From Pleurotus ostreatus/Saccharomyces cerevisiae fusant (Eukaryota > Opisthokonta): a DNA stretch of 64,000 bases. Shown in pieces: positions 30,214 to 52,202 of the stretch. Where the stretch lies: the NCBI GenBank assembly GCA_024196135.1, contig JAMQCK010000002.1, positions 434,001-498,000 of the forward strand, written 5' to 3'. The translations under genes were made by a program, and so were the position numbers. The notes under the pieces are model-generated. The model worked only from the letters and a program-made list of their open reading frames with translations, ran no database searches and was not told where the DNA came from. The number at the start of each line of letters is the position of its first letter. The stretch's first letter is position 1.

Positions 30214-30236
30214 TGGGAAATCCGGCTTTGGCGCAC

Positions 30237-31981: not shown

Positions 31982-32032
31982 CGGGGGCCAGGGAGTCCTG
32001 CTGGGGTCTCCACGTTCGAACCGGGCTTCAGG

Positions 32033-32167: not shown

Positions 32168-32175
32168 GCACCGCT

Positions 32176-32207
32176 GGACGGCCTTTGTGCGTATATTCCG
32201 GGGTCCT
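32176..32207 (-). repeat. Right terminal inverted repeat, 32 bp
   Basis: Inverted partner of 30182-30213, followed at once by the right copy of the duplication TCGCTGAC (32208-32215). Confidence 0.87.
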
Positions 32208-32215: not shown

Positions 32216-33220
32216 CCGCTACGGACGCCGCCTGTATAGCGGATAGCACGGGGAACTTTTCGACAGCAACGACGCTCGCTCTGGAATTGCATGGCGTCCA
32301 TGAGAATGCGCCCATCCTGCAGGGAATCCCGCCCGGCAGCCGACTTGACGAGGTACCGTCCCGCTACGGAAGGTCGCTCCCAGTCCCTCGACGCTCGAAC
32401 AATCGGTAGCGGCGCGGGGCGCCCGGTCCCCGACTCTCATTGATTGTGACAGGATGATTGGAGTCGAAGGCCAGCAGCATATGATACAATTACAAGTAAG
32501 TACTTATTTGGTTATTGAGACGTGTCGACTACCATCTGACATGCTATCATTCACGACGAAGGATGGTGTGACTGAGAAGAGGATGTGGGTATTTGTGTAC
32601 GCTGGCATGCAACAATGTCGTAGAACTCACCATTCACTGCGAAGAGGATAGGGAGTTTTGTAGAGCCAGTAGCCTATTAAGCCAGCTGTTGGACTCGGTA
32701 ACTTCGTGTCGGAGAATGTTGTACATTGTGGTTAAGTATTGGATGGTATGTTGTAGGTCATCGGGGATATCCGTACGCCCGCTGCGGATGGTGTGTTGCA
32801 CGTTAACGAGCTAGGCTAGTAAGTATACATCGAAGGAGGCAGAGGATAGTTACAACGGACCGTTCCTCGAAGAAGCGCGTGTGCGAGTTTGATAGAGGAA
32901 GCGCTATCCAGGACACCAGTCGCCGCCGCATCAAGAAGGTCTGCTGCCATATTTTCGATGAGCTGCGAGTGGGCAGCGGAAGTATTGTGAATATTGTTCG
33001 GATTGCTCATGAGGGGCGTCGCGGGGAGTGCTACACAGGAATCGAGAGCACGCCAATGCTGCGCAACAGGTACATTTATACGTGAACTACTAGTGGTACA
33101 AACAAGTCATCAACAGATACAATTACATTACTTATACGTACGTGACGACTGACCAAACGATAGAGGACCGATGAGCTATAAGTACATCTGTCAATCGTCG
33201 CGTCTAGCGATTCTGGCTAA
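32216..33220. other. Gene-free, AT-richer stretch, possible relic
   Basis: About 1 kb. From about 32.45 kb the sequence is visibly more AT-rich than the neighbouring genes and closer in composition to the Helitron at 45-52 kb. Short frames on both strands (for example SASSIKLAHALLRGTVRCNY on the minus strand near 32.9 kb) look protein-like, but I can assign none. A decayed transposon is possible. Confidence 0.35.
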
Positions 33221-34843
33221 CTACTTGTCAATAACCATGCGGTCACCATCGTGCTCATCTTTCTCGTCTGCCTCCTCGTGGTGCACCTTCGAGCGCGACC
33301 CCTTCTTCTTCTTCGGGGACGAAGGGGCCGAAGCGGGCGTGGAGTCGACGTCGACCTTGCGCTTGGAGGGTGAACCACTCGGAGGTGGCGGAGGTACCTG
33401 GTGTTCTGTCGAGGGGCCCGCAACGTTCTCCATGGGTGTATGGCGAGGCGACGACGGGTCAGCAAGCGTGGCGGATGGCGAAGGTGCGGCAGTAATTGCA
33501 GGAAGCGCGTGCATATACTCTTCGTCAGGGCGAAGGACGGAGATGTCGTCCGCGAGCAGGTGCCACGAGCGGCTAGAACCTTTGGTATTGCTGATGATCC
33601 ACCTAAGAATTCATATGAGGAAAAAGGTATAGGAAGAGATGAACACGCCGTACACCTCCATCTGACCACTGATGACAAGCGGTAGGCCGACGTCGAGCTT
33701 CTCAGCGTAGTCGCGTGGAAGGATGCGGTGGCCCCTAGCGTCGCGGTAGTTGGGGTACGTCGCGAAGATGGATTCCGGCGCCTTCAGATGCTCGACGGAG
33801 TTCCTAAAGTAGCCAAGGGGATCGTAGGCATTCTCGATAAAGAGGGGCGTATCTATAGCACTGTGAGGTGCGATCATATGAAGGGAAGTAAGCGGTACGT
33901 ACCGATATGGGCGGCGTCCGTGAGTAGCTTGACATGCGCACGCCTGCGCTGAGCTACCGCAATGTCAGAATGGGCTATGAGTCCGCTCACTCAAGACGTA
34001 CCTGGAGTCATCATGATGTCATCGTCGCCGCTGTTCATCTTGCTTGTCGACCCGACGACGGCCTTGGTGTTGTAGAGCTGCTGGGTGAGGAAGACAGCCA
34101 GCCACTCGTCCGGGTTCGATGGGCTCGGAATAGCAAACGTGCCGTTGATCTTGTCTGGCGCTGGCCCAGCTACGTGGGGAGTCAGACAGAGTTACGCAGT
34201 CGAGGATCAAGTACGCACCAGCGGAGAGTTGAGCGTTATACTTATGGTAGATGCGCTCAATGCTTCCGATGGCGTACCTCGACGCCTGTACGACGTCGGC
34301 AGAGATGGGAGTGCCGCCAGGGTACGTGTCCGTGTCGCGGAGAGCACGGACAGGAATGGCGCTGCGAAGCCTGCCGAGTTGGAGGCCATCAAACATGTCC
34401 TGCAAGACTCGAATGTCAAAATGCGTTGAAGAAGATGGAAGAAGCGTACTCACGTTCTGGGGAGCACCGGAGCGCGGGAGAGCATTGCCGTACGCAGTGA
34501 GAAGCGCCGGGCGTTCACCACCGTTGAATTCAGGGTACGCGATGAGCTTGAACTGCGCAGGGTGGCCGTTGCCGAGAACGACGCGGTGCGGACCATTAAA
34601 TTCCGTACTGAGTTTGCGGGGGTTGTTGGTGGGCGCGAGTCTGTCCCGAAATGCTTTGTTCAGGAAGGAAGGATCGGCGACGACTTTGTCGGCAGTTGCG
34701 ATGAACGCGTCATCGGGTACGAGTGAGAGGTAAGCGTCGAGGGTCTGCGCAGAGAGGTGAGTGACAGAATTGGTACGGAATGGATGGACGGGACTTACAC
34801 CATTGGCAGCATCGCTCCCGCCTTCGGTGCTGATGTTGGACAT
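33221..34843 (-). CDS. Hypothetical basidiomycete protein
   Basis: I do not recognise this protein. The start ATG (34841-34843) gives MSNISTEGGSDAANG; a GTAAGT donor follows directly. Exon 2 reads TLDAYLSLVPDDAFIATADK, then FLNKAFRDRLAPTNNPRKL, HRVVLGNGHPAQFKLIAYPE and FDIRVLQDMFDGLQLGRL. Later exons give NPDEWLAVFLTQQLYNTKAV, DTPLFIENAYDPLGYFRNSV and WIISNTKGSSRSWHLLADD. The C terminus is Pro/Ser-rich with a likely nuclear-localisation run (SPKKKKGSRSK) and ends DRMVIDK (stop 33221-33223). Four or more introns with good splice sites, and no stop inside exons, argue for a working gene. It lies between the transposon region and the gene mosaic. A nuclear location is inferred from the basic run alone. 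Confidence 0.7.
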
Positions 34844-35638
34844 AATGACTGATGGCAGGGGGAAAAGCAAGAGAGATGCTCTAGAAACGAGGATTGAGCG
34901 ACAGGGAAAAATATATCGACGCTCGGGGGTACGCGTCTCGCGCTGATTAGGCATATACGGTAATAGACGTACGTTAGTGAGAATGTTGACGCAGATGTGA
35001 CTGCATATTTGCGTGTGCAAGGGATAAGATCGACAGGTTCAGGGAGAGATCGGATAGCAGTTGCTGCTGCAGACACCAGCTGATCATCCTGGACGTTCGG
35101 GCGTAGGGAGGGGGTGACGGGGCGTAAATAGCGCGCTACGGGTTTGGGTGCATGGTGTGCTTGTGACCGATGCGGTGCACCTGCAGGCGTCCGATAGTGT
35201 AGCGTATGCGGGCAATGCACAGTCGAATCCTTGTCTGCAGCTGGCATTGGCAGGAGGATGATGGAGAGATGACGATAGATTAGGAGCTTCAGGCTTCATC
35301 ATAACGGTGAGGATTCAATGGCAAAGACCGCGTGCTGCAGCAGAGACGAGGAAGAAAAGAAGACATTGAAAGCCGCTGTCGTGTTTTGACACGATTGACA
35401 GCCCACGTGCGTGGGACCCACATGGACCGTCATTAGCGCGCGCGTCGAAAGATGTGTGTTACACAGGCAGGCTCGCGTTCGAGGTCTTGGTGCTTGCGAG
35501 CGTGTATAGCAATCACAACATATGGATATTTTCATCAGAAACATGCGCTCATAGTACAGGAGCGCATTACACTACGATAACTATCACGACATTGACATCG
35601 CGTCGTCGTTGTTGTTCCTTCCGTCCTTGCTGCACTTG
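34844..35638. other. Intergenic, upstream of the hypothetical gene
   Basis: About 800 bases. A TATATTT element near 34909-34916 (minus strand) lies about 70 bases upstream of the start at 34843. The rest, up to the SidA 3' fragment, holds no recognised gene. Confidence 0.4.
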
Positions 35639-36280
35639 TTATCTGCTCGTCGCCTGCACATCGTTCGGACGGGCGGCAATCGCGTCGTCCAACTGTTGAT
35701 TATAGACCGCATCGTAGACCTGTACACCAGTGTCAGGAATGGCAGGTTGCCTGTGAACGCTGCGGAAGGTTACCGAATCGAGGGTGCGCGGGTTGACGCC
35801 AGTGTAGTTCGTGCATTTGTACTCTTGCAGGCGAGGCTTGCGAATGGCGGGATTTAAAATCTCGTACCATGCACCCGTGGCTGTTGGACACGTCAGAAAG
35901 CCTTACAGATGCAGTGAACGGGTTGACTGACATTCAGGTTCGAAGATCTCATTCGTGAAGGGGCTATCGTCACTGGGACGCAGGGCGGCGCGGCGCATAA
36001 CCATCTTGACCTGATGATGAATAGAACCAGACGGAAATGGAGCTCAGGCGATTGCAAAGGTTCAGCAGGATCTCCACGGCTGCCTGGCCCGCGCCAATGA
36101 CACCGATGGCTGGCCGAGGATGTTATTGATGTCCGCCATGCACGACGAGCTGTGGATGATGTTCGGGTGGTCGAAGACGGGCTTGACGCAGTGGCGGAGA
36201 CGCGGCGAGCCACCTGGGGAGATCACCACATCCGTTGCACCGTTGGTGAAGCTCTCGCACGCGTTGTCCAAGGCCGAGAT
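35639..36280 (-). pseudogene. 3' fragment of an L-ornithine N5-monooxygenase (SidA-type) gene
   Basis: SidA hydroxylates ornithine at the start of hydroxamate siderophore synthesis. Visible pieces in SidA order are ATDVVISPGGSPRL, FDHPNIIHSSSCMADINN, then in a shifted frame AIGVIGAGQAAVEILLNL (the second, NADPH-binding Gly-rich motif). After an intron come VKMVMRRAALRPSDDSPFTN and EIFEPE, and after another ATGAWYEILNPAIRKPRLQE, YKCTNYTGVNPRTLDS and VYDAVYNQQLDDAIAARP, stop at 35639-35641. The frameshift before the NADPH motif lies near 36115. The C-terminal part normal for the family is missing. Upstream it runs directly into glucan-synthase sequence near 36.28 kb. The matching 5' part of SidA is 7 kb away at 43.3-43.7 kb, with the region between the two pieces absent. 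Confidence 0.75.
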
Positions 36281-36284
36281 GCCA

Positions 36285-39200
36285 TGCGGCAAGCCGGCGA
36301 GGAAGAATGCGATGCCGAAGATGATCGAAGGGACCGATAGGATGTACACGGAGGGCTTCAGACGGAACATCGGGTACCGCACCGCCGACGCAGCGAGGAA
36401 GACACCACCGATGATATGGAAGTGAGTGTCGTTCCGCCTGTTCGTGCCGCTGAGCAACTTGAAGCCGATCTGGAAACTGGTTGTGCTAAGCATGTGAAGA
36501 TTGGTTAGTGACGGTGCTCATAGATAGACGGAACAACGCTTACGTGAGCGAGGCCATTGAGATGGTATGCGTCAAGCTCTCTCGACGTGAAGATCTGGGT
36601 GCAGTTCATGGATACGATGTCAGCCAGTGCTGTGTCGTCTGCCGATGAGGAGTGTCTTGATATCGCAACACCATCCGCTGATTCACTGTAGTCAGCATGT
36701 AAGTGGGTGCGAAGCAAAGGCGACTCGCCACTTACTCTCAGAAGCTGTGTAAACCGAAGAGGGGCGATAGTGCATTGTCGAAGCGCCGGCGTGCTTATGC
36801 GAGCGAAGACTGGCCGCAGTGCTCAGCTTGTCCTTGCGAACCTTCTCGAAGAAGGCCTCCTCGCTCTTCATGAGGTACTTCTCGATGGGCAGTTCATGCT
36901 CCGAGTTCTTGGGGTTGACGTCGCGCAGTTTCTGAACGAACTCCGCCGCGACCGCACCGTCCGCATCCGTGAACTGAGCGCACGGTCAGGAGGTCGAAGA
37001 ACACAATGCGAACGCAAAGCAGACTTACCGAAGCAATGGCCTTGTTGAGAGGAGAGTCGGCGTTCTTGTCGACGATGGAGGCAATAGACTCTGCAGAGGA
37101 CACCCGGGAGTACATCGTGAAGGGCCGGGCAGGCGCAGCTCCGTCGAGGAATGGATCCGGAGCGCCGCGCTGGTTGTGTGCGATGGCTTTGTTGGCACGA
37201 GACAGGAAGTTTTGGAAGTCGCTAGAGCCGGGTTCGTACAGTCTGCCGTCCTCAGAAACAGAGTCGCGGTTGTTGGGCTCCACGATCTGGGGACGCGCAG
37301 ACAGGTAGTCGTTGCCAACACCGCTATCACCGTCCGACGACAGAGCGGTCTGCGGAGTGCCAGGAGTGACAGGGCTCATGTAGCTGTTGCCACCAATGCT
37401 CGACATGCTATTCCTGCCCCAGTTCGGTTGCTGCGGCGGTGCAAGAGCTTCTGGGTTCCAGTCCTCGTTCTCCGGAATGGCGCCGAAGGTGGTGTGCTCG
37501 CCGCCGTCGCTCGGACGCCATGCGTCGCTCTCGGCCAATGTCCTGCTAGTCGTGATACTGCGCTTGTGGAAGTCCTCCATGCGTTGACGCCATTCGACGA
37601 CCGGGAAACGCTGGACAGCGGACCGCGCACGAAGGATAGCACGCTCCTCTTCAGTCGACTTCAGGGCCATCTCGATCGTCTTCGTGAACTGCGAGATCAT
37701 GTGCGCCGTCGAGCTGGATTCTACAGGGAACCACTGAAGGATATTCAATATCTCAATGAGTGCAAAAGCACGAAAGGGCTTACCCAACCACGCATGAGAC
37801 CAAGACCACCGAGACGACTACCGACACCGAGAGCACCCTTACGGCCGAACTCGACGGCGACGAGACCGAATGGCTCATCACGAGACGGTATGAGGGCAAA
37901 GTCGGCACCGCTGAACAAGTAAGGCGGCAGAGCAGTGAACTCCGGCTTTGAGTACACTCTGTCGGGGTAGAGCTCCATCAATTGCGCAAGCTTTTCCGCA
38001 GCGAAGCGACCGTAAAGATCGATGATGGGACCGACACAGATAAGCTGGATAGACGGTTGCTTCTCGAGTCTGACAGAAGCGTAAGTATTAGGACAAGATC
38101 GTAAGGCAGGAACACTCACAGGCCAGTCATGACATCCGCGATGAGATCGACACCCTTCTGCTTGGACCAACGACCGACGAAGACGAACAAGTTCGCGTGC
38201 GGGTCCTGCTTGATGCCAGCCCATTCCTGCGCCTGCCTCTTGTTCTCTGGGCGCTTCGCCTCAGCCTCCTGGTCGATTTGGATCTTGCGAACCTCCGTCG
38301 GGTTCTCGTCGAGGGCGTCGATATCCGTAGGATCCGGGTTCGGGAGCGAGTCTACGTGCTTGAGTGCCCAGAGCGCAGGGTAACGCGCCCACGAACGCTT
38401 GCCGTACTTGTCAGAGACACCCGCGACACCGACGGAGTTTTGGTGGACACTAATGAAGGAGGCGGCGGCGTGCAGCAAGTTGAACGTGTTACCAAACTGG
38501 ACGTATCTAGTGCAGTGTGCCTTGCTGATATTGAACGCCGAGCAAACTTCCTTCATCTCCTCCTTGGTGCGCAGAGGCCACAAGCCTTGGAACTCGGCGT
38601 TGTGGAGCGACAAGCAGACGGGGATGACCTTCGGGAGCAGGTAAATGGGAGCGAGGGCACCGTGATAGTCGTTGATATGGTAGATGTCGATGTCAGGGTA
38701 GCGCCGGATGGTCGCCGCGATGGCCTGATTCCAAGTCGAGTAGAAGATGGCGGAGCTCAAGTCGTCCATGCGCTGCGGGTACGGGTCGGCCTTGCTCTGC
38801 GCGCGGAAGACGGGGCTGTCGACGATCACGTAGGTGATGTTGTCCACGACGTGCGTCTCGACCTCGACCTGGTATGCCTGCCCGAAGATGATAACCTCAA
38901 TGGGCTCGGCGGGATCGCCAGGAGGGTAGTCGAGGTCCTTGACCTTCGCGACAATCCAGACAAGGTCGACGTCGGACATAGCCTTGCCCATAAGACTGGC
39001 CATGACACCGAGACCACCAATCTTGATTTTGAGCTTCCAATCGATGATCTCGTACTCCAGGGTGGCGATGAGGACCTTGCGGCGCTTGTTCTTGTCCTCG
39101 GGCCAGCCTATGATGTCGCCGTGGTACTTCTTATGGCCACCGAAGAGCCCGCCAGCACCCTCGGGGTCGTGCAGGTCGCTCTTGGACTTGCCGAAGAGGT

Positions 39201-39700
39201 CCATGATGGGGAAGTACTTGCCCTTGTTCGACGGCTGCACACCGTAGCTGTTGTGCTTGATGCCGTAGAACGAGCGCATGAAGATCAGGACGGAGGCGAG
39301 GGCCGTGATGAAGGGGATCGAGAGGAGCAGCGCGTACGTGATGATGCCGACGGACGCCTGCCCACGGGGCTCGAGGTACCAGCGCATAGTGCTGTCGTCG
39401 ACGGTGATACGGAAGGACAGATGCTTGCCAGGCGGGGCGGAGATGTTCAGCTGACTGGGGGCGGCGGTGTTCGGCGGCAGACGGTCGAGGATACCGTCGT
39501 TGTTGACGTCTCCGTACCAGTAATCGTTGTAGTCGAAGACGTTAAGCTGAATCCAGGTCGGCCAGACAGCCGACAAGTCGAGCTGCCATAGACCCTCGTC
39601 GTTCAGCTTGAACTCGGACTCTACGGCCTTGTCAAACCCGAAGTTGTTGAACTTGCCACGCGCAAGGAAGCGCGGAACGCGACGCGCGCGTGGCGAGTTC
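36285..39700 (-). pseudogene. Alpha-1,3-glucan synthase fragment 2 (GT5 domain and start of the membrane region)
   Basis: AGS makes cell-wall alpha-1,3-glucan at the plasma membrane. The piece starts at RRVPRFLARGKFNNFGFD, continues with LSAVWPTWIQLNVFDYNDYW, a membrane helix (IITYALLLSIPFITALASVL), and the starch-synthase-like GT5 domain: KIGGLGVMASLMGKAM (UDP-glucose binding), [50 protein letters not shown] and [17 protein letters not shown] (retaining-GT acidic motif). A Ser-rich linker follows (SSIGGNSYMSPVTPGTPQTA), then DDTALADIVSMNCTQIFTSR, STTSFQIGFKLLSGTN and the first C-terminal membrane helices (YPMFRLKPSVYILSVPSIIF). There the AGS match stops near 36.29 kb and SidA sequence begins. 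The remaining C-terminal membrane region is missing. Exons and splice sites inside this piece look intact. Confidence 0.85.
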
Positions 39701-39708
39701 AACAACTT
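39641..39708. repeat. Fold-back inverted repeat at the AGS/coiled-coil joint
   Basis: The 23 bases at 39641-39663 (AGS codons for ARGKFNNF) reappear inverted at 39686-39708 with one mismatch, around a 22-base spacer. The outer arm is not part of a normal AGS reading frame. Confidence 0.8.
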
Positions 39709-39739
39709 TTCATCTACTTCTTCGCATCTACTCACCTCC

Positions 39740-42177
39740 TCAACGTATGTTGGATTGGACGAGTTGGACGTTTACTCGTCCTCCCCCGTCCCGCTCATGC
39801 CAGCCGACCATACGGTCGACCCGCTCCCCGCGCTCCTGCGACCACGGCGGCTCCCCGGACTCCGTCCGTCTTTGGATCTCGGTGAAGCCGCTGCTGCCGC
39901 CCTTCGCGAGCTCCGCGCTCAGCTGGCGTTCCCTCGCATCGAGGGCCGCCAACGAGTTCTGCGCCTCGACGTGCTCAAGCGCCTCCTGCGTCAGCCCCGG
40001 GGTCTCCGCGCCATTTCCCAACCCCCGGCGAAGACAACGCCGAGTGCGTGTCATTAGGATTGGGAGACCTCGGCCCGAAGAGCGACCACCGACGCGCCGC
40101 GGAGGCCGTAGGCGTCGCAGACGACGTCGAGTGCGAGCGTTGCACGCCCGCGGGGTTGGACGTGATCACAGGCAACGGCGCAGGCGCGGGCTCATAGCCC
40201 ATAAGCTTCATCGTCGCCTGCAGCCGCTCGCGCTCCTTCCTATCCTCCTCATCCTCCTCCGTGTCCAGCTTCCGCGCGTTCACCGCCTGCCCGGGCTTGA
40301 GCTGCAGCGGGCGCAGCGTCGGCGCCTCGGGCTTCTTCTCCCCGCCGAACGGGTTGAGCGAGCGCCAGTCGAAGGACATCGAGCGCCGGCTCGCGCGCGC
40401 GGAGGGCGAGGGGTTCGACGGGCCATCGAGCTTCGGGCCGAGGAAGCTGTTGCCGGAGCCCTTGGCGTCGGGCGTGGGGTTCGTGGACGACCGGCCGACG
40501 AAGGCGGATTGCGGGCGCGGCTTCGTGGGCATCTTGAAGGTGTCGAAGGTGGTGGGGGCGGGGGTCTTCGGCGTCGTCGGCTGCTTGTCGTAGTCGACGG
40601 CGGGGACGTGCTCGAAGCCCTCCTAAGCGAGGATGCGGTCGACGATCTTGGACGCGTACAAGGACAGCGCCTTGTTGGCATCCTTGAGTGCCTTGACCTC
40701 GTTCCGCAGGGAGTCGATGTCGTTGAGCGATCCGCTAGGCTCCAGGGTGCTGGCATTCTGCGCGCGCGTATCTGAGCCCTTCTTGCCGCGCTTCTTGTTG
40801 CCGTTGACGACAGACTGGTCGTTGTCGAGGTTGGTGCTACCGTCGAGGAAGTCCTTGTTCTCGGCGCGACCGCGAGGTCGAGACCGGGGCCAGTAATGGG
40901 CAGATCGGCCAGGGTCTCGCCGCGAGGAGCAGGAGATTGCGATGTGGACTGACCGCGCCTGCGGCCCTTGCGACCACCGCGGGACGCAGGAGAGTCAGAG
41001 CGGTTGGCAGCAAGGCTGCGCTCGAGCTGCTGGTCGAGGGTCTCGGGAACATGATCTTCCTCCTCGACCTTCTCCAATGTGCTGCGACCTGCGCTACGAA
41101 GGCTACCACGGTCGCCGCCGCTGTTTGACTCTTCCTCCTCGCTTTCCGAGTCAACGCTTGAGGAAGCCACACCCATCGAGTTCATGACATTGAATTGGCC
41201 GTTGAGAATGCGCTCGCGGAGCAAGATCATGTAGCTCTCGTTCTCCTCCTGGAGCTCGTTGTTGACGCGCTTGAGGTCGTTAAGCTGGCCTTGAAGGAGG
41301 ACAAGCGTGCTCTGCATGGACGAGTAGGAGGTGGACAGCGTGGAGAGCTCCAGGCGGAGGGAGGTCATCTCCGCGGGCTCTTCCTCGACCTCGATGGTCT
41401 CCTGCTTCGGCGTCGGCGGGCGGACAGATATCTTGGAGACCGTATCCGGCTCCTCATCAACGTCCGTCTCGGGCTCGTCCGCGGGCGCCGACTCGCGATC
41501 CGCCTTCTTGGCCTGGCTGAGCGTCTGTATCCGGGACTTGAGGTGCTGCTCGTTATCGTAGAACGCCTGCCGTTCAGCCTCGAACGTCGCCGTCTGCTCG
41601 CGGTCAGCGCGCGGCGCAGGGAGGTCGCAGCTGGCCATACCTGCTCATTGTACCTCCGCTGGAGGTCCCGCTTCTCCTTTTCGAGCTCGCGCACCTGCGT
41701 GCGGTGCTTCTCTGCGACCTCGATGCGCTGGGCGAGCTCCCTTTCGGACCTCTCCTGGTCAGCGTAGAGCTCATTCAGCCGCGTCTCGGCGGCGTGTAGG
41801 GACGACGTGAGCTTGTCATTGTCGGAAACGAGGGTAGAGATGGTCTGTTCCTTGTCCTGTACTTGAACCAAGAGCTGGGATATGTTAGTCGATGTACAAT
41901 ACGATGGAAGCTGGCAACACACATGCTCCTTCTGCTCTACTTCTTGCTTCAACGCCGTCGCGAGTGATTCTTTGGTCTCCTGTCCTGCGGTCGGTGGTGT
42001 GGGTGCTCTGAGGGAATTGCGTCGGGCTGCACCGTTCCCGAGAGCCGAGGAGACACGCGGAGAGGCGGCGGCGCGTGCCGTTGCTCCCCGGGCTATGGAC
42101 GCGCTTGTCGGGGAGCTGAGCGTGTTCCTGCGCCCACTGGGCGGCGTCGGACGTGGTACTGGGGCAGACATGGCCAT
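39740..42177 (-). pseudogene. Coiled-coil protein gene, nearly whole but disrupted, inside AGS
   Basis: The start ATG at 42175-42177 gives MAMSAPVPRPTPPSGRRNTL. A Ser/Ala-rich head and an intron lead to LLVQVQDKEQTISTLVSDND, then long heptad-rich sequence: SERELAQRIEVAEKHRTQVR, ELEKEKRDLQRRYNEQ, FYDNEQHLKSRIQTLSQAKK, and LVLLQGQLNDLKRVNNELQE followed by ENESYMILLRERIL. Later DIDSLRNEVKALKDANKALS and SLYASKIVDRILA are followed by an in-frame TAG (40623-40625), after which EGFEHVPAVDYDK continues in frame. A shift of two bases near 40.87 kb and one near 40.02 kb are also needed to stay open. The family is an unnamed basidiomycete coiled-coil protein, perhaps cytoskeletal. Both ends lie inside AGS sequence on the same strand. 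Confidence 0.68.
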
Positions 42178-42214
42178 TTCGTGTGCGGATGGTGGTGGTT
42201 TCGAATTCGGAGCG

Positions 42215-43312
42215 GTGGTCGTCGTAGTTGTAGTCCGCGTGCGTGACGTGCGACGTCGACATCGTGAGCTCGCTCCAGTCTGCATAGAGCGTGAGCAATC
42301 GGCGATAAAGAATGCAAAAGAGCAAGAACTTACACTGCACCATAATGTGGTAGCCATCCCAGAAGTTGTCCTCGTCGTCGAACAGGGTCGTGTTCACCTT
42401 CGTCTGTTGCTCGAAGTCCGTCCAATCCGTCCAGTTCTGACCGAAGTTCCTCGAGTAGCAGAACTTGTCGGCACCCCACGCGCGGTGGTTGAAGACGAGA
42501 TCGTCGCCAGACTTCACGAACGCCGAGTTGTTGTAGTCGTTGTACGGGAACACCATGACGTTGTCCTCAGTGCCCTTGCGCAGCAGAAAGTAGTCGGTCG
42601 CCTGCATAGCGTCAGAAAGTGAATAGAGAAAGAAATTGAACGCAACGCACGTTGGTACCGTCGCCGCCGTTGGACGAGGGGTCCTTGACCTCGATCCGGA
42701 GGACACCGTCGGGCATACCGCTGAGGGTCGCAGACCATGCTCACGCACTCGTATCGTCGCCGGGGATGATGACCGGGTCCGGGTTGTCCATGCCGCCGCA
42801 GTTGACGTTCGAGATCGACGGCGCGTCTCCGCCGCCCGACGAAGACATCGTGAGGGTGATAGAGTCCGTGACGCTGTCGCAGTCCATCTCCGTGTTGAAC
42901 TCGATGGAGATGTCGACGTCGTCTTTGCCGCCCTGGCTCGTGATGCGATGGTCGTGGCCTGGCGTGAACTTGGCCATCGCCGGCAGCGGCGCCACCCCCT
43001 GGTCATCAGGGACGAGGGCCTTAAAGCCGTAGCGCTCGAAGGTGATAGACCGGAGGCAGCCAAAGTACGGGTCTTTGCCGTCGTAGTAGTATGGCTCGGT
43101 GAGGTCGTATGTCTTGTACGGCGCAAACGAGTTGCGTACCTTGACGTTGCTCTGGAACGGCGACAGGATCTGCTTCTTGCTGTCGCACTTGAAGTCGTAC
43201 GTCTGCATCGTGTTCTTGTTTGTATAGAAGAGCCAGACGGGATCGTTGTAGCGGCCATCGACAGTGTTGTGGTGCTCAATATTGTCGCGCTTGACGGCCC
43301 AGAGACCCTTCG
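42215..43312 (-). pseudogene. Alpha-1,3-glucan synthase fragment 1 (end of amylase-like domain)
   Basis: The match starts at GLWAVKRDNIEHHNTVDGRY, in the last part of the N-terminal alpha-amylase-like domain. It continues DPVWLFYTNKNTMQTYDFKC, FGCLRSITFERYGFKALVPD and PAMAKFTPGHDHRI. After GDDTSA an in-frame TGA occurs at 42741-42743; the frame continues as AWSATLSGMPDGVLRIEVKD, where related proteins would have a sense codon. After an intron come ATDYFLLRKGTEDNVMVFPY, AWGADKFCYSRNFGQNWTDW and FWDGYHIMVQ, and after another WSELTMSTSHVTHADYNYDD. AGS similarity then stops near 42.2 kb and the coiled-coil gene begins. Its natural continuation is fragment 2. The catalytic part of the amylase-like domain, several hundred residues, is missing. 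Confidence 0.82.
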
Positions 43313-43713
43313 GAGTTCAGCAGACGGCCATGGGCATGCAGATGAGAAAGGAAGGAGATGGCCGAGGACGGGTTTTGGAGCCTGGCCAGGTGTTTGAGGT
43401 CGCTAGAATACGCGGGTCATCAGATGACGAACGTGAATTCTGTATGAATGGGAACACACCTGAAGTGCATGCGCGCATCGGGCTGCAGCATGCCAGGATG
43501 CCACTGGAACTTGTTGTGCTTCTCGACAAAGAGAACATGTTGATCGAGCTGGGCTGGGGAGTCGTCTGGCAAAGTGGAGATAAGTCGGTGGTGGGGGACA
43601 ACGAACGGCGGGCACGGCACCTTGTCCTTCTCCCATCGCTCAACGAGCGTGCCGCCAATGGCGACGTTGGCAGGGTCGTAGCCGACTCCGATGACATCAT
43701 AGACTTCCGACAT
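43313..43713 (-). pseudogene. 5' fragment of an L-ornithine N5-monooxygenase (SidA-type) gene
   Basis: The start ATG (43711-43713) gives MSEVYDVIGVGYDPANVAIG, the FAD-binding start of SidA-type enzymes. Members usually read G-x-G-x-G-P; here the third Gly position is Asp. After a probable 71-base intron come LDQHVLFVEKHNKFQWHPGM and LQPDARM, the family's best-known block. After a further intron DLKHLARLQNPSSAISFLSH and LHAHGRLLN follow. Within a few codons the sequence becomes AGS in another frame, and the SidA frame ends at a TGA about 45 bases later. The rest of SidA is missing here; a 3' piece lies at 35639-36280. Confidence 0.8.
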
Positions 43714-44828
43714 GGGCGAGCAGAGAAGAAGGAAGGGAGGATAGGCGGTGATGTGCTTGGCGGGAAGTGGGGACCAGATGGGGGATTGAGATGAGAGAGA
43801 GCAGGCGGGTTAGGGGCAGACAGTGCTGCGCGGACCTCAGGATGAGCAAATGCATGCTCGTGAGCGGCAGCAATGCTAGCGCCAGCAGCACGGACAGCTT
43901 GTGGTGCACGATTTCGTTCGTCTGCAGCGCGTTCGAGCCGTCGTCGAAGGTCGCGCGTGGGAAGTCCTTTGTGGAGGGAGTCCATATGCTCGCGGATTGC
44001 ATGACACTGGTTCGTTGTCCGTCAACACGCGCGAAGTGGAATGCCGCGGTGAAGATGGCGGCGTCCAGAGGATGGATGCCGAGCAAGAGCAGAGAGGCGT
44101 CCACAGATGCGCATCAGCCTTGTACGCAAACGTCTGCGCGGAGCCCACTCGGTCTCTGTCATTGGCTAGGCAATGTCGAGGTCGATGCTTGTACCGCTGG
44201 CACGGTAGGTACGGAGATACACCTTGATTTGCGCGTTGCCGATATCGTAGGTGTGCTGCAGGTGCGAGCCAGGAAACAGGTCCGGTATGATGGAGGCGAA
44301 ACTGTCGAAGGGGATAGGAAGGCGGAGGAGTATCACAATGCTCGGGACGAGGTTGATCTGTGCAACGCGGCGGTGCTGCTCGTGCGTGCTACGGAGGTTG
44401 CACATTCAAGCAGGCGGGAAGGCGGCTCCCCAAAGCCAGCGACCGGCATGCTTTGCAAGTGTACGTAAGGCGCTGCAGACATCTGGACCATGTCGCCACT
44501 GCTATCGTCGCCTGTGCGGTTCATGTGCTGGTACCTGCGAACAAGAACGAGCGTGTCGTCGACGACTGCATCAATGAAAGGCGTGAGCATGGCCATCATG
44601 CACTTGGGCCTGCCGCGCATACGGGACTGGTCGGTGTTGACGCGTTGCCCGACATGGTCAACAATATGGCCGAAGAAGAAACTGGGCTGGGCGGGAGCAG
44701 CGAGGGTGGGAAACAGGTGGCGGTCGGAGTTGGAGTGATCGCGTCCGGAGTTCGGGTGATTGTGTTCGGTTACTACTGCCATTACTGTCTTGCTTGCTTG
44801 TATCGTTGCAGTGTATAGTACTGGCATG
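43714..44828. other. Unassigned segment between SidA fragment and Helitron ORF
   Basis: About 1.1 kb of GC-rich, gene-like composition. Minus-strand frames include PAQPSFFFGHIVDHVGQRV, QINLVPSIVILLRLPIPFDS, AAIFTAAFHFARVDGQRTS and VHHKLSVLLALALLPLTSMH. Some look like spliced exons, but I cannot link them into one protein or name a family. It could be a further captured gene fragment, the Helitron 3' flank, or both. Confidence 0.4.
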
Positions 44829-47800
44829 TCAAGATAAGGGGTACTGCGAACGTGCAGAGTAAATAAATATATGGGCAGGTCGGCCATCAAGGGAAGTCAA
44901 CGAGGGAAAGAGCGAATCTTGTAGTAAGCAACCGTTTGCGACCTGACCATCGTACTTCCACCAAGTTGAAGTCACAACATCGAAGTACCTGCACGTAAAG
45001 TGGCCACCACCAACATAGATAATACCACATAGATAATAATGTAGGTCAGCATAGTGGTGTGATGGTGTGTATATCTGGTCAGAAATGAAGGTATCTGTCA
45101 GTTGCAAGCCTTGCACCTCAAAGAAAAGGAGTGAGCATGGCAGAAAAGAAGCAGATGCAGGAAATACATCACCACTCAAGTAGTTGCTTGTACGACATGA
45201 AGAGCAGAAAGATGATGTTGAATTTGGAGTGAGCGTATGTATGAACCATTCTCCAATAGATGATGCATATAGTGGATCGAGAAGCAAAGGATGGATCAGG
45301 GTTGGGCAACGATTGCGATGGACTACAGTTCCAATTGAATGACATGCAGAGCATTCATACTGTTCTATGAAAGAAACATTATCAGAACAGATGATGTGCT
45401 CTAGCATTCGTGACACAGACACCATGACTTGTCCATGTAAGGGAAAATTAGAAGGATCTGTTTGGTATAGCCACTGTCGTAAAGAAACACGAACAGCCTC
45501 GAAAGCGGAAGGATCATACCGTATATTCAGGTCAGGCACAAGTAGACTGCTGAATAAGGGAACCAGGTCACATACAGGAGGTGTACACCATTCAGTCCAA
45601 ATACCAGCTCCCTCGTGACATGTGTTCTTGTACGCACCAAGCAGAATGACAAGAACAGAATCGTATGCACATGACCAGTTCTCGGAATCCCAACGACAAC
45701 CAGTAAAGGGAGTATCAGAGGAGATTGAGAACGTAGACATAGAATGAGTGCTAATCGTATCCTGATCATTGACACGCACACGCTTTGAAGGTACAGATGT
45801 ACTGCAATTGTCGGGTGTTGAGGGCTTCTTACGCTTGCTTGCTTGTTCAACAAATACAAGAACAGGATTCTGAGGGTGCAAATTGGTCTCACTCTCGGGA
45901 TCAGGAACTGTAACTGTATCTGTGCTGCCAAATATGCCAGTATACCCATGATGTATCATAGTATTGTGTTCAAGAGCCTGAAGTCGTGCTATCTCAGATG
46001 TAAGCTCCCGTGGCAGAGGTTTGTTAAGTTGTTGCAGCGTCACAGGCTCCGTAAGATACAGGTTGTTCAAAGAACGGGCACGCGATGCAGCAACATAAGC
46101 ACTGAAACCTCCTTCTGCAAGATTCACTAAAACACTTGGCAGAGTCTTGCCCTGAGCAGACTGACCTGTAACAGCAAAGGCAGGTTGGATAGGAAGTTGG
46201 TGTCGAGTAATCTGCATCTGCTGGCCAGAACGTAGTAGTGTTGAAAAACGCCATGGAATTGGGTAGATTGGAAAGCATGCACGTGGAAGTCCTGATAATT
46301 GAACAGAACTTAGAGGAAAGTACACAATAACACACGGACAGTACGTGTATCCCCGAGCACAAGAGGTAGTGTACAGTTTGACAACAGTGCCTTGTGATCC
46401 GTTGCTGACTCCAAGTTCCGTACATAAGTTACGGGATCGTAAAATGACAGGCATACCAGTATATAGTGGAATGATAGAAGGAAGGGAAGTGCTCCGTGCA
46501 GGCAGAATCATCTCCAGTAGTTCTTTGCGGACATCGTCATCTACGAGTACAGTGCCAGATTTGTCTACAGCATATGAGTATACAATAGATTCAGGAGTAT
46601 CCGGATGTGGACGTATGGCCTTTGCGCGCTGCAGATTGATTTCCTGCCGTAAGTCATTAGTACGTACAATGGCAGTTGCATGGTAATTAGCCTCAAGTCC
46701 CATATCAATACCGTGTGGCCGGTTGGCAGTCCGTATAACACGAGAATTGAATAGATCCACATCATCCAGTGTACATTCACGTGTCCGTAAACGGTTGACA
46801 GCATCACCATAGGTTGGATCATTTGCCATACGTTTCTGCTCTTTCAGTGTAATAACAGTGTTAACTGTCTTCCATGCCAGTCGACCAAGCCGTTTCGTTG
46901 TTTCAGAATTGGTCTGCTCTGCATATGGAAGAATTGGCCTATATAGAGGTGTACCACCAACAGGGGGATATTGATAGAAATCACCAGCAAAAATCATATC
47001 AATTCCTCCGAACCACAGTGATGGACGTTCCTTTGCATAACGCAAGGCTGCATCAGTATCTGCTATAAGTTGTACACTAAACATACTGATCTCATCGGCA
47101 GCAACTATCTGAACGTGGCGGTACTCTTCTCTGATATCGTTCCGCTGTTTGACACTGACAAGAACACTATAGTCTTCCGATGCAGATCCAAGGTCTCTAT
47201 TACCTTTTCCTTTGGAATTTGAGTGCACCGTAAGACCAAGACTCTTATGTACTGTCATGCCATCGATAAGACCTGCAGCAGAACCAGTTGGTGCAAGCAG
47301 TCGAAGTGTATGACCCATGCTAAAGAACGACAATAGATCTTTAAACGCATTAATAACATGTGACTTTCCAGTACCACCAGGGCCAGTCATAAGCATGCGA
47401 AGGGGAGTACTTGATGGCAAAGGCATAGTGCTGTGCGTACTAGTGCTCTGCGAAGGTAGAATATGGCTGCGGATGAAATGAGAGGCAATAATGTTATATG
47501 CAATAGCCTGTTCCTTGTTCAAACAAAACCTGCGCGATATAGAAGATACGACCTGTTGAACTGCAGATGCAAGGGTCATCGGATGTTGTGGAGGTACATC
47601 AGTATCTAACACATGCAAATCAGTGCCATTAGTCTGTAACTGGACAGCATCAAAAAGCGTAGTTGGTAGTATAGATGTAGTTGAAGATTGGGTAAAAGAA
47701 ATGTTTGCAGACAAATCACGCTGTGGTACAGAAGTACGGCGCATATCTTGTTTTGCTTTCTCTTGTGCACTAATCTCGTCCTTCCACTTGCGCATGATTG

Positions 47801-50800
47801 CGGAAGATAACTCGCAACTTGAAAGAGAAGAGTAATCAAAAGCCATAGGAGATATGTTCTGTAATCCATCGATGTGCTGTAACCAATTCGACTGTCGCAA
47901 GGCGAGTATAGATTGTGATACAGCAAGGTTTGTACCTGCTGATAACTGTGACACAATGATGTCTTCAGCAGAGCAACCACTATCCTGTTCACCGTCTGTG
48001 GTAGTTGGCTTCGATGAAGATGAGGCTGCTGCACGCTTCTTGAGTCGCTCAGAATCACGCTCATCTTGACACTCATATACAGCCTCCCAGTTTTCCATGA
48101 TATTACGTGCACTATCAGAGAAATTAAACGACTGAAAGACTGCGTCAGGTACCATTGACGGTGGGATCAACGGATCTTCATCACTGAATGGCTTGAAATG
48201 AGCAAGAGCAAATAGAGAGAATGTTGGATGTGCAGGACGTGGAATAGAGCAACCAACAACACGTGGTATCAGACGCCGATCACCAAACACAAGCGGATTT
48301 GAATGCAAAAGAAGGTCATGTGTATCATGTAAGGGATGGTTGGATTTTAGGCTGTACCGAGGCAAAGTTCCTACTCTACTGTCTTTGCTACTCTTGTTTT
48401 TTCTCTTGCTTTTCAGCTCCTTTGATACACAACGGCAGAAGTCAAAGAATGAAAGGTAGTGAAGAGCACTATCACGGTAGTAGTAGTCCAGAAACTGATT
48501 GTTAACTACAACATTGCTATCTCTGTCAGTGACAATGCGGATACGATCACCCTCGACAACATCGTCAACATTGTCATCCGGTTCATCCACATTAATCGTA
48601 TTTTCTGAAACATGTTTTGCATCGGATGGAAGCAATGAACGTAGAGATGCCATCAAAATAGATGACTGCATAGGAACAGTGTTGTGTGAGGAAATACCGT
48701 CTCCAAACCCACGTAGGTACCGTACAGCCTGCTGTGCATGGATCTGTTGCTGACGTTGAAACTGGGCAACACATTTATGTAATAACGCTTTCGAGCGGGC
48801 AAGCGGACTTGTTCCATCACCAGGATCCAGAGCAGCAACAGCACGAGAGATAAGACTGAGCATCTCATAGGTCTTCAGATCCATCTTCGTAATATAGTCT
48901 GTGATATAGAATGAAGCCGCCTTCGCTGCTTTTCCAGAAAGAATACACTTCAAGTCATGATTGTGACGGCAGAATACAAGAATAAAAGGATTGTAATAGT
49001 TCACGGTGGGGTCCAAACATACAATAAATATAGAATTAGTAGCTGGATCAAAGAACGAGTGTGTAACAATATCATGCGGAAATTGAAAGCGACAATTGTC
49101 TGTATTACCGTACTTGTGACATACAGCTCGGCAAGTATGTCGTTGCAACTTCTCACCACACATCTTGACTTCTGACAGAAACGTCTCCACCCAAAGCTTG
49201 TATGCATTATTGCCCATGCCATCATCTGGATTATCAAGACTGAAAAGCTCAGGCGGGATAGGTGGTGGCATTTCCACACGTGGTTCCCGATTGAGATCAG
49301 AAAATTCAATGTCTGGAAGGTCATGCTTGATAATATCCTCCGTGTAGGCAAAGAATCGATCTTGAAACCCAGCATCATCTTTTAAACGCTTATGTAGGGC
49401 AGTGGGATTTGGAGCACCTTCTAACCAGATGAGAAAATGTCCATGTAGAGAGCCTCTTTCTGTATATTCCGATGTTCCATAGAAAGCCTTTATATGCCCT
49501 AAAATTCCACCATCAGACGTAGAATGCTTACGCTTGAAGTCCCACCCAAAGAGATGTGTAAACAGACATTCAAAAGAGAATTGGAAAAAATCTGCAGCAA
49601 TAACAGGCTCTTCTGCTAAACGACGTGCCCGCTCAGGTCCTGCTGGCAACAATGGAAATCTGTTTGTTAAGTCGACTGTATTATCTCCATACATAACTTG
49701 GAACACAGGGCTGTGTACAGGACTAGGGTTAAACGTAAAGTAAAGGAATGGCATTCCAAAGTATGCGAAATAATTACGAATCTCATTGCGTATGCATAAT
49801 TTAGACGCCTGTGAGCCAGGAACCTTTGCGGATATTGCACGGACCTTGCTAAGTAATTTCATGACGCGCTGACCCATAATGTCTGAATGGTCAATGTGTC
49901 CTTCGCTTTCAAAGATATTAGCAACACGCGCAATGTGCTCAACCGGAAGAGATGCCAGGTCATTTGCGATAGCTTGAAAACCTGAACGCGAAACAGTAAA
50001 GTGTGTGTGCAAGTGACTCTGACGGCGTTGCAAAATATTAAGAGCAACGAACATATACGCGTGGTGACGAGCAAAGCAACGGTCGTCAAGATCCAAGAAA
50101 TATTCAGCCTGCTTGTCAAATGCAATTGCAGTCGGACGCTTCGGATCTTCAAAACCACCAAAACCTTGAGGAAACAGGGTTGGAAACATACCAGGAAATA
50201 GATCAGGATTCTTGTACTCTGGTGTTGCAATTGATGAGCGGTGCACAACGAGATCAGGACGGCTTGATTGATCTGGCAATAGACTACGCAGAGCAGATGC
50301 GGTGAATGTTCGACCGGTCAGATGCACACTCTCTGGATCAGATACACCCATCTTTTCCAATAAAGTGTCACCTGCAGTACGGCTTTCAGCATTCATGACG
50401 TCGCTTGGATGTTCAGAAAGTCCTGCTGTCTCTTCTTGTCTGACGTAGTCAGGATTTAGAGAATTGTCCAATACAATGCGCTCATCAAGTCCCGGAAATG
50501 TATCGTCTTCAGGGTACATGTCAAAAATGCTGTAGTCCATAGGGATGTTATGGTAAAGACGGTTGCTGCTATGCAAATATTTCAAGAATGCGATAGCTTT
50601 TGATTTACGGAAGCGGAACATATTCTGGCAGCCTAGCATAGACATACGAAACTTTCCAGGCCCAACAAAGATAACAGAAAGCATATCGTTCACATCATCA
50701 GGAGCACGTGGCAAGACTGAGGCAGTCGACACAATATTCATATCATGCGCACAAGAATTTCCCGTAAAAACACGAGGGGAACGTTCATCTGCTGATCGAA

Positions 50801-52202
50801 AAAGACGGGTGACATGGGCAGTTGTACGATACAGCGAACAGACCATCTCTTCAACCCATGTTATATCCTGTAGTTCAGGAGGCAGGACACCACGGTAGAG
50901 ATTATTGGCAAGAGCGTAGCGGGGCATCTTGTTGCGGAGAAGGCTGCCTCTGCATTCACTACAAAGCTGCAATGCAGGTGCTGTGCGAGATGGGGCTCGT
51001 GGGTGAGGGTAATCCAAAAGCACACCATGTTTGTCAAGCAAGAGACCATCAAGTCCAGAAATACCAAATATGAACTCAGTTCGGTCATAGAAGTGCAAGA
51101 GCTCTGTATCTGTTGGTCTCAACAACTCCAAATTCTCGCTAACTTCATCCTCTGGCCAGCGGTACACTGCAACATCAGCATCCATACGGCGGCGACTGCA
51201 ACAAGCACATAATAATGGCTGAGTCCAACGCATTGCATCAATGTACGCAGCCGCACAAGACAGTTTGACATGATCGGGGACAACCTGAGGCCAGTCAGCC
51301 TGAATATCTGCAATTTTGTTGGCCTGCATAGATATAGCCTCTGCCTTGCGGTCAGCTCTCCGTACTGAATCTTTCTTTCTGTGTCTCATCTGCCGTTCGC
51401 TCTCCAACACATTGATATCAGCAGAAGATGCAGCTGCAGGTTTATACAAAGCCAAGAGCACGTCCTTGTTGTATTCGGTTGACAATAACATCTTTAGCAT
51501 TACAGTAGTCTCTGGTATGTCAAGAAACATAGGGAATCTTGATAAGAAAACTTCGAAAAGATCAGAGCAATCCAACTGCAGCAGATACTGCACACGACCA
51601 ATAACGTGACGGACTATAGCCTGCATACAATTGTGAGCAGATCTTCGTCTATATTCTGGACGTGTGGAAACCGGAAGTGCACGAAGACATGATGTAAGCG
51701 TGTCCAGAGAGAGGTCACTAAGCTTATCGACTGTTGTATCAAAAGGGCAATTCAGCCACTCAATGTCTGTGATAGGCATGTCCATGGCAGTACAAGAATT
51801 GACACCGTTGTGGTGAATTGTACTCATACGTATGGTATCTGCTACATCAGCACCGAATACAACTGACAAACATGCTGCTATTAGACAGTGACAAGACATG
51901 CTTTGATCAGAAGTTAATGATGCAAGGCACCCTAAAGACGATGCAAAACCTTGCAAGGACTGCATAGACTCAAGATAGTGCTCTACCATACAGTCACGCA
52001 TAGACATGAAGGATTGCATCAAGACTTCAATGATATCGGGCTTCGTCTTGGGAACATGGTTGGGATCGATGGCAAACGGCGACAACTGCACATGGTGCAA
52101 AGACTGCCGAAGGGCAGGCACGAATACATGTTGCAAGGCATCTCGTATCGTACATATGTCATTAAACAGATACGTGGGCAAGACAAAAACAAAGTTAGAC
52201 AT
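44829..52202 (-). CDS. Helitron Rep/PIF1-type helicase with ubiquitin-specific-protease-like C terminus
   Basis: One uninterrupted frame of about 2457 residues. The first in-frame ATG is at 52200-52202 (MSNFVFVLPTYLFNDICTIR). Residues around 450-550 match the DUF6570-type region that precedes fungal Helitron proteins (RNKMPRYALANNLYRG). The replication-initiator domain has PFLYFTFNPSPVHSPV, the HUH-like motif RGSLHGHFLIWLEG and the catalytic-tyrosine segment FYITDYITKMD. The PIF1-like helicase has LMTGPGGTGKSHVINAF (Walker A), VAADEISMFS (Walker B), MIFAGDFYQYPPVGG and TGQSAQGKTLPSVLVNLAEG, then SAYVAASRA. The last 250 residues carry WSCAYDSVLVILLGAY (Cys box), a Cys pair cluster (CSACHS; CSSCRT) and YVGGGHFTCRYFDVVTSTWW (His box), as in C19 ubiquitin proteases. 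No stop or frameshift is present, so it is probably functional. It is markedly more AT-rich than neighbouring genes. Confidence 0.9.
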   Translation of the reverse strand: MSNFVFVLPTYLFNDICTIRDALQHVFVPALRQSLHHVQLSPFAIDPNHVPKTKPDIIEVLMQSFMSMRDCMVEHYLESMQSLQGFASSLGCLASLTSDQSMSCHCLIAACLSVVFGADVADTIRMSTIHHNGVNSCTAMDMPITDIEWLNCPFDTTVDKLSDLSLDTLTSCLRALPVSTRPEYRRRSAHNCMQAIVRHVIGRVQYLLQLDCSDLFEVFLSRFPMFLDIPETTVMLKMLLSTEYNKDVLLALYKPAAASSADINVLESERQMRHRKKDSVRRADRKAEAISMQANKIADIQADWPQVVPDHVKLSCAAAYIDAMRWTQPLLCACCSRRRMDADVAVYRWPEDEVSENLELLRPTDTELLHFYDRTEFIFGISGLDGLLLDKHGVLLDYPHPRAPSRTAPALQLCSECRGSLLRNKMPRYALANNLYRGVLPPELQDITWVEEMVCSLYRTTAHVTRLFRSADERSPRVFTGNSCAHDMNIVSTASVLPRAPDDVNDMLSVIFVGPGKFRMSMLGCQNMFRFRKSKAIAFLKYLHSSNRLYHNIPMDYSIFDMYPEDDTFPGLDERIVLDNSLNPDYVRQEETAGLSEHPSDVMNAESRTAGDTLLEKMGVSDPESVHLTGRTFTASALRSLLPDQSSRPDLVVHRSSIATPEYKNPDLFPGMFPTLFPQGFGGFEDPKRPTAIAFDKQAEYFLDLDDRCFARHHAYMFVALNILQRRQSHLHTHFTVSRSGFQAIANDLASLPVEHIARVANIFESEGHIDHSDIMGQRVMKLLSKVRAISAKVPGSQASKLCIRNEIRNYFAYFGMPFLYFTFNPSPVHSPVFQVMYGDNTVDLTNRFPLLPAGPERARRLAEEPVIAADFFQFSFECLFTHLFGWDFKRKHSTSDGGILGHIKAFYGTSEYTERGSLHGHFLIWLEGAPNPTALHKRLKDDAGFQDRFFAYTEDIIKHDLPDIEFSDLNREPRVEMPPPIPPELFSLDNPDDGMGNNAYKLWVETFLSEVKMCGEKLQRHTCRAVCHKYGNTDNCRFQFPHDIVTHSFFDPATNSIFIVCLDPTVNYYNPFILVFCRHNHDLKCILSGKAAKAASFYITDYITKMDLKTYEMLSLISRAVAALDPGDGTSPLARSKALLHKCVAQFQRQQQIHAQQAVRYLRGFGDGISSHNTVPMQSSILMASLRSLLPSDAKHVSENTINVDEPDDNVDDVVEGDRIRIVTDRDSNVVVNNQFLDYYYRDSALHYLSFFDFCRCVSKELKSKRKNKSSKDSRVGTLPRYSLKSNHPLHDTHDLLLHSNPLVFGDRRLIPRVVGCSIPRPAHPTFSLFALAHFKPFSDEDPLIPPSMVPDAVFQSFNFSDSARNIMENWEAVYECQDERDSERLKKRAAASSSSKPTTTDGEQDSGCSAEDIIVSQLSAGTNLAVSQSILALRQSNWLQHIDGLQNISPMAFDYSSLSSCELSSAIMRKWKDEISAQEKAKQDMRRTSVPQRDLSANISFTQSSTTSILPTTLFDAVQLQTNGTDLHVLDTDVPPQHPMTLASAVQQVVSSISRRFCLNKEQAIAYNIIASHFIRSHILPSQSTSTHSTMPLPSSTPLRMLMTGPGGTGKSHVINAFKDLLSFFSMGHTLRLLAPTGSAAGLIDGMTVHKSLGLTVHSNSKGKGNRDLGSASEDYSVLVSVKQRNDIREEYRHVQIVAADEISMFSVQLIADTDAALRYAKERPSLWFGGIDMIFAGDFYQYPPVGGTPLYRPILPYAEQTNSETTKRLGRLAWKTVNTVITLKEQKRMANDPTYGDAVNRLRTRECTLDDVDLFNSRVIRTANRPHGIDMGLEANYHATAIVRTNDLRQEINLQRAKAIRPHPDTPESIVYSYAVDKSGTVLVDDDVRKELLEMILPARSTSLPSIIPLYTGMPVILRSRNLCTELGVSNGSQGTVVKLYTTSCARGYTYCPCVIVYFPLSSVQLSGLPRACFPIYPIPWRFSTLLRSGQQMQITRHQLPIQPAFAVTGQSAQGKTLPSVLVNLAEGGFSAYVAASRARSLNNLYLTEPVTLQQLNKPLPRELTSEIARLQALEHNTMIHHGYTGIFGSTDTVTVPDPESETNLHPQNPVLVFVEQASKRKKPSTPDNCSTSVPSKRVRVNDQDTISTHSMSTFSISSDTPFTGCRWDSENWSCAYDSVLVILLGAYKNTCHEGAGIWTEWCTPPVCDLVPLFSSLLVPDLNIRYDPSAFEAVRVSLRQWLYQTDPSNFPLHGQVMVSVSRMLEHIICSDNVSFIEQYECSACHSIGTVVHRNRCPTLIHPLLLDPLYASSIGEWFIHTLTPNSTSSFCSSCRTSNYLSGDVFPASASFLPCSLLFFEVQGLQLTDTFISDQIYTPSHHYADLHYYLCGIIYVGGGHFTCRYFDVVTSTWWKYDGQVANGCLLQDSLFPSLTSLDGRPAHIFIYSARSQYPLS

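Follow-up and report, generated by a model that had tools for sequence, protein, structure and literature searches.

Nested host-gene pieces, probably captured in succession, inside a predicted Helitron2-type element of Schizophyllum commune

The stretch of DNA analysed here (the window, 64 kb, C391:434001-498000) holds on its minus strand a row of broken host genes, enclosed by what is predicted to be a Helitron2-type rolling-circle transposon. A piece of a SidA gene is followed by a piece of an alpha-1,3-glucan synthase (AGS) gene, a coiled-coil gene, more of AGS and a further part of SidA. All five are present in the order given by a preliminary description of this DNA, and each gene matches a separate place in the same genome: SidA at C614:16617-17998, AGS at C1013:50902-54839 (67-78%) and the coiled-coil gene at C674:16599-19118 (95%), with E from 0 to 1.9e-27, which is beyond chance. 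Same-genome searches were made in the assembly of 40.05 Mb and 1277 contigs, whose labels are the C-numbers used here, and domains were assigned with Pfam. The extent first proposed, 35639..43713, holds for the SidA, AGS and coiled-coil pieces but not for the full mosaic, which is larger, as SidA is preceded by a piece that we take, from its motifs, to be GPI ethanolamine phosphate transferase-like (Table 1). Between these two, at the cargo edge, the stretch 43829-44040 has no other match listed in the assembly. The claim that the pieces were copied at the DNA level agrees with the DNA matches to the resident genes, which run through the introns; retrocopies were rejected because the introns are retained.

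The genome itself is assigned to Schizophyllum commune, the split-gill mushroom, because of matches of two proteins. The second gene of the element agrees with S. commune P0121 in 171/172, 74/75 and 197/197 residues (introns apart), and a protein search with it returned three proteins among 2124 candidates from a database of 5.8 billion, all of them named S. commune; its counterpart in another large copy of the element (C946) matches another S. commune protein nearly as well. The resident coiled-coil protein is identical to S. commune P0124 in 610/614 and 163/163 residues.

Table 1. Features of the element and its cargo, in positions of the window.
Feature	Position	Strand	Remarks
Whole element, Helitron2-type (predicted)	32402..53546	-	21.1 kb; limits of similarity to the copies in C946 and C329, which have the same ends
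5' asymmetric terminal inverted repeat, then short hairpin	53536..53546	-	read directly from sequence
RepHel frame	44829..52394	-	2521 aa stop to stop, likely ATG 52202; no stop codon
GPI ethanolamine-phosphate-transferase-like piece	44042..44722	-	69% to C67:50092-50718; relation also seen by tblastx; Pfam Phosphodiest in resident relative
SidA 5' piece	43314..43827	-	starts ~110 bp before ATG; 88% to C614 (blastn); Pfam Lys_Orn_oxgnase
AGS piece 1	42226..43313	-	67% to C1013; one in-frame stop
Whole coiled-coil gene	39709..42225	-	~40 bp before ATG to past stop; 95% to C674; residues 1-771 of P0124
Foldback scar	39641..39708	-	arms 39686-39708 and 39641-39663, 22-nt loop, 22/23 paired
AGS piece 2	36234..39685	-	starch-synthase domain and part of membrane region; 78% to C1013 (first 2 kb); Pfam Glyco_transf_5
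SidA 3' piece	35645..36233	-	85% to C614 (blastn); ends inside gene
507-bp stretch at end of cargo slot	35138..35644	.	no other match in assembly
Second element gene	33221..34843	-	multi-exon, about 441 aa; also in C946
3' copy of inverted repeat	32428..32438	-	26 nt ahead of 3' end; GC palindrome after

Each layer of the mosaic is collinear around the next, in a nested order. The refined joints lie at 43314/43313 (SidA 5' to AGS), about 42226/42225 (AGS to coiled-coil), about 39708-39686 (coiled-coil to AGS, with a foldback) and about 36234/36233 (AGS to SidA 3'), and by eye they share about 0-4 nt. The host genes had been described as having lost parts, and this is true of SidA, the copy of which is without the 255 bp where AGS sits (the resident gene keeps them as C614:17128-17382) and ends inside the gene, but AGS is hardly eroded at the inner insertion. 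In 30 related AGS fragments the spacing from H(A/S)D to RRVP is 6 residues (23/30) or 7 (7/30), and as the left half in the window keeps YNYDD, i.e. at least 5 spacer residues, after HAD, while the right half starts just before RRVP, the predicted loss of AGS at this point is a codon or two at most. The coiled-coil gene, first taken as nearly complete, is in fact present over all its 771 residues, with frameshifts and one in-frame stop: compared with the resident at C674, which encodes the whole protein, it has a 10-bp deletion and insertions of +1 and +4 (frameshifting), and the stop is at 40625. The SidA copy carries indels, and in AGS piece 2 a frame of 524 codons stays open; the cargo pieces are probably decaying passengers without protein function.

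The joint at which the coiled-coil gene passes into AGS carries AAGTTGTTGAACTCGCCACGCGC, an inverted copy (22/23) of AGS sequence 22 nt further on. No other inverted repeat in the 64 kb combines arms of at least 20 and a gap of 3-60 with no more than one mismatch, and 20 resampled sequences contained none of this kind. As the AGS-side arm encodes the conserved ARG(K)FN stretch, it served as template for the other. The other joint of the coiled-coil insertion shares about 3 nt (AAG), and an insertion by a target-duplicating transposon was rejected, since there is no duplicated target at the ends. According to the yeast data given in PMC11724301, breaks can be healed by foldback at inverted microhomology, which leaves inverted duplications mostly of 5-34 bp; the other joint then shares 0-5 bp. 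The case here is alike in the short inverted copy by the break, the priming at inverted microhomology and the few nucleotides at the other joint, and unlike in that the yeast break was laboratory-induced and lay outside a transposon. The scar resembles botched DNA-break repair and agrees with filler DNA having been used to mend a break that fell within cargo taken up before.

The whole mosaic lies between two ends that are shared with other copies. The connection with a Helitron that the preliminary description had made thus stands, except that the Helitron, at 32402 to 53546, is the container of the mosaic and not its neighbour. The element starts at 53546 with CCCCGACTCTC and ends at 32402 with CTACCGAT; the terminal repeat has 11 nt, its inverted copy is GAGAGTCGGGG, and the 3' end closes with a GC palindrome and CTACCGAT. 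When up to 3 mismatches were allowed, the 5' and the 3' motif were each found at 11 places of the assembly, whereas the reversed patterns that served as control gave 0 in both searches. Both motifs occur on one strand in 8 contigs, spanning 21.1, 16.9, 3.6, 2.5, 1.5, 1.0, 0.67 and 0.23 kb, and C329 has a 1-kb element with the same two ends. In all 5 distinct copies with a readable flank (of 11 5' ends) a T precedes the element, and the base following the 3' GAT differs among the 11 copies. By its ends and coding content the element classes as a member of the Helitron superfamily and, within it, of the Helitron2 type rather than a Helentron, because by the features compiled in PMC5148889 the latter would have an endonuclease domain, and no endonuclease family is among the Pfam matches at 1e-3. 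A canonical Helitron1 (5' TC, 3' CTRR, insertion between A and T) was rejected in view of the 3' end CTACCGAT and the T at the 5' flank.

Some of the other copies and the surroundings have peculiarities of their own. A 3.6-kb copy, which shows no RepHel similarity in the part read, contains a stretch (C350:3805-4472; L048 1-668) that is perhaps a third cargo; this stretch is 94% identical to C473:1861-2519 and 76% to C350:13756-14433. At one point the copy at C1041 (L044) exceeds that at C1057 by ~640 bp, and 7 bp overlap there, the kind of trace that the insertion of an element leaves. Outside the element, a ~650-bp repeat with inverted ends (window 30181-32207), which matches about 20 contigs, is interrupted at about 30638-32017 by an insert of 1.38 kb. 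C206 has a 91% copy of this insert, and the two halves of the repeat overlap by 4 bp, which is target-duplication-like.

The element codes for two proteins. RepHel matches Helitron_like_N (PF14214, 1.8e-25) and PIF1 helicase (PF05970, 2.4e-14) and has the motifs HGH (HUH) at 984, FYITDY (YxxxY, double tyrosine) at 1162 and Walker A at 1673; between the window and C946 its dS (synonymous divergence) is 0.585 and dN/dS (dN, nonsynonymous divergence) is 0.10 over 2457 codons, and the element is probably autonomous. The last 343 residues of RepHel (window 44832-45860) are 79% identical in C946. Pfam gives nothing for them at E 10, and the PDB two matches at E 0.87; in two segments of this part, NWSCAYDS and GGHFTCRYF, we presume a resemblance to cysteine proteases. 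The RepHel region 45001-52000 has a G+C content of 43-47%, against 51-67% elsewhere in the window (1-kb steps). The second gene, with a lysine-rich stretch near its end, belongs to no Pfam family; for it the two copies differ by dS 0.85 at dN/dS 0.17 (399 codons).

The space between these two genes is occupied differently in the two large copies. C946, with 16.9 kb the second of them, matches the window at 53547-44839 (86.6%) and at 35137-32402 (73%) and has unrelated sequence in between, in which carbamoyl-phosphate synthase (C913, 93%), myosin II (C338, 88-93%) and a phospholipid methyltransferase piece (C828, 74%) stand end to end. In the window the order in this slot is the GPI-enzyme-like piece, SidA, AGS, the whole coiled-coil gene, AGS, SidA and the 507 bp. 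All 7 cargo genes identified over the two large copies have the sense of RepHel, which would occur by chance in <1% of cases (0.5^7, by simple arithmetic), if the pieces are independent, which they may not be. The weak Pfam hits of L019:8371-8682 were left aside. The captured myosin piece is 97 bp longer at C946:240896, apparently because part of its coiled-coil region was duplicated locally. A second relative of the carbamoyl-phosphate synthase is found on C950 and C936 (17.4 and 17.6 kb) at a near-equal offset, perhaps in two haplotypes of one place.

Each copy was compared with its resident relative in a reading frame that had been checked. Between the coiled-coil copy and C674, dS is 0.166 and dN 0.005 (764 codons); the SidA copy differs from its resident by 0.255 and 0.088 (270 codons), the carbamoyl-phosphate synthase of C946 by 0.161 and 0.019 (423 codons) and the myosin by 0.141 and 0.032 (255 codons). 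In S. commune, nucleotide diversity (pi) is 0.13-0.20 and dS about 0.34 between populations, as reported in PMC9187340. Thus 4 of the 7 copies are no farther from the resident gene than alleles or populations are from each other, and their dS makes them younger than the split between the two elements. The remaining copies are more distant, with dS 0.64-0.74 and dN 0.12-0.22 for the AGS pieces against C1013 (167 and 487 codons), dS 0.60 and dN 0.27 for the GPI-like piece (205 codons), and dS 0.63 and dN 0.16 for the methyltransferase (98 codons). Of the 94 differences in the coiled-coil copy, 82 are at third positions. These differences are the divergence of working alleles before the capture, to which little can have been added after it, and as they are almost only synonymous and allele-like, the capture is recent. 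Change after a capture should hit all codon positions alike, so that dN sets a bound to it, and by that measure the innermost layer, the coiled-coil gene, is the youngest, with SidA as the outermost of the layers dated.

All this is best explained if the mosaic is the cargo of a Helitron2-type transposon of S. commune, acquired in successive filler-DNA captures of which the later ones hit the earlier cargo, a reading to which we give a probability of roughly 0.78. From what can be read directly, i.e. the two ends of the element, the open RepHel frame, the second conserved gene and the slot with differing host-gene copies in two large copies, we infer the following steps. A double-strand break within the element would have been closed with a copy of part of a host gene as filler DNA, with loose short joints, and the donor genes would have stayed in place. 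Later breaks inside this cargo would have been healed in the same way, so that AGS was copied into SidA with the loss of 255 bp of SidA, and then the coiled-coil gene into AGS with almost no loss. In this last event, one of the broken AGS ends may have folded back, copied ~15-19 nt and then been joined to the coiled-coil copy. The traces of filler-DNA capture are present, namely internal copied host segments, retained donors and short homology at the joints, which at AGS and the GPI-like piece were compared with relatives instead of the true donors. Filler-DNA repair is favoured over a read-through because the introns are kept, the resident genes are in place, the joints share 0-4 nt and the nested layers are collinear. 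Serial capture or filler-DNA repair had been suggested from the start, and the nested collinear halves, the short joints, the foldback scar and the other cargo in the slot of C946 support it.

Several observations weigh against this explanation. The AGS piece is farther from its only resident relative than is the SidA piece that surrounds it, and the GPI-like piece, too, stands at a large distance from its relative. The dS of the coiled-coil and SidA copies is near the allelic variation of S. commune, and the order by dN would be less firm if, as may be, SidA simply evolves faster than the coiled-coil protein. An intermediate element was not found in the assembly, and neither was an empty site or allele of the flanks, the searches for which gave only the window itself, or the window and repeats. 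As to AGS, its high dS in comparison with the surrounding SidA means that C1013 is not the donor and that this capture cannot be dated. A search for parent genes in the same genome had been advised; resident copies were found for SidA and the coiled-coil gene, and for AGS only this diverged relative: no donor is present in the assembly, and besides the window the protein search gave C1013 (76%). In a quick tree of 122 AGS fragments (full-length AGS being outside the length limits) the window piece is on a long branch (0.86) apart from C1013, though its placement is unsure. The donor may have been either a foreign source or a lost paralogue. Also for the GPI-like piece, the assembly has no true donor.

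Of the other explanations, a single complex event survives best, although it is rather improbable. A copying strand could have hopped from SidA to AGS, the coiled-coil gene and back by template switching, which would agree with the short joints and with the fact that foldback scars arise in microhomology-primed repair, and where polymorphism is as high as in this species, the layers can be dated only weakly. One strand would then have had to return twice with great precision, its error being a codon or two in AGS and no more than 255 bp in SidA, and the gap between the coiled-coil gene and SidA should not be far bigger in dN (0.005, 0.088) than it is in dS (0.166, 0.255). It is very unlikely that the mosaic is a composite of Helitrons that inserted into each other, each with one gene piece, and then lost their internal ends. 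Self-insertion has been described for Helitrons of Fusarium and maize (PMC5148889, PMC3288121), but the joints here run from donor to donor, and in a scan of the element with up to 2 mismatches, which covered the end motifs of this Helitron family and not those of others, the motifs were found only at the two ends of the element, save for a weak match at 41486 in the coiled-coil piece, off any joint. Still a little less probable is an end bypass, in which the transposase runs beyond the 3' end of the element and takes flanking genes along; it has been experimentally confirmed for canonical Helitrons according to PMC5148889, but here the cargo is internal to the shared second gene and the shared 3' end, its relatives sit on four other contigs, and read-through puts no gene inside another, so that with this nesting and no 3'-end remnants seen between the pieces it was rejected for the inner layers. 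An assembly error is unlikely and the least probable of all: the assembly is in 1277 contigs, but the pieces differ by 4-33% from every other copy found, so that reads of those loci could not build the mosaic, the window has no N, the contig has 592 kb, and the same architecture recurs, with other cargo, on a second contig.

Going beyond the successive captures, it may tentatively be suggested, with less confidence than the captures themselves, that a capture slot prone to breaks lies between RepHel and the second gene. In each lineage of the element this slot would break time and again and be filled anew, in the element's sense each time, with any host gene that the repair happens to copy, so that later captures come to lie inside earlier ones and old cargo is lost. 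If this were true, the layers would be a readable stratigraphy of captures within the lifetime of one hyperpolymorphic species. Many haploid strains of S. commune have been sequenced, 34 + 21 in PMC9187340, and these are the place where intermediates with only the outer layer could show the order of events.

How Helitrons take up genes is still argued, with end bypass and filler DNA as the opposing models, and the locus bears directly on this question because its nested cargo is not a product of read-through and the foldback scar points to break repair. Among the literature searched, no paper title describes Helitron cargo in S. commune. From the description in PMC5148889, FoHeli1-5 of Fusarium oxysporum are alike in the asymmetric terminal inverted repeat with an inner copy 20-40 bp from the 3' end, the 5' hairpin and a RepHel without an endonuclease domain. 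They differ in their size of ~5-11 kb, compared to 17-21 kb here, and in the host-gene cargo, the second conserved gene and the T at the 5' flank that characterize the present elements. HELPO1 of Pleurotus ostreatus, as presented in PMC4289320, is likewise from a basidiomycete, has extra genes downstream of RepHel and includes one copy for which filler DNA was proposed; unlike it, the S. commune elements hold at least 7 host genes with relatives in the same genome. Stepwise capture is already known from maize (PMC3288121) and from insects, where Hel1 contains filler DNA (PMC6544945), and there, too, several fragments were gained stepwise and internally to the element. In the accounts of these two systems the steps were deduced from related elements side by side, whereas here the pieces are nested and one joint has a foldback scar. 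What is new is the nesting, the scar and the host-gene cargo in large fungal Helitron2 elements, while the process itself is known, and the fungal case is an unusually legible one.

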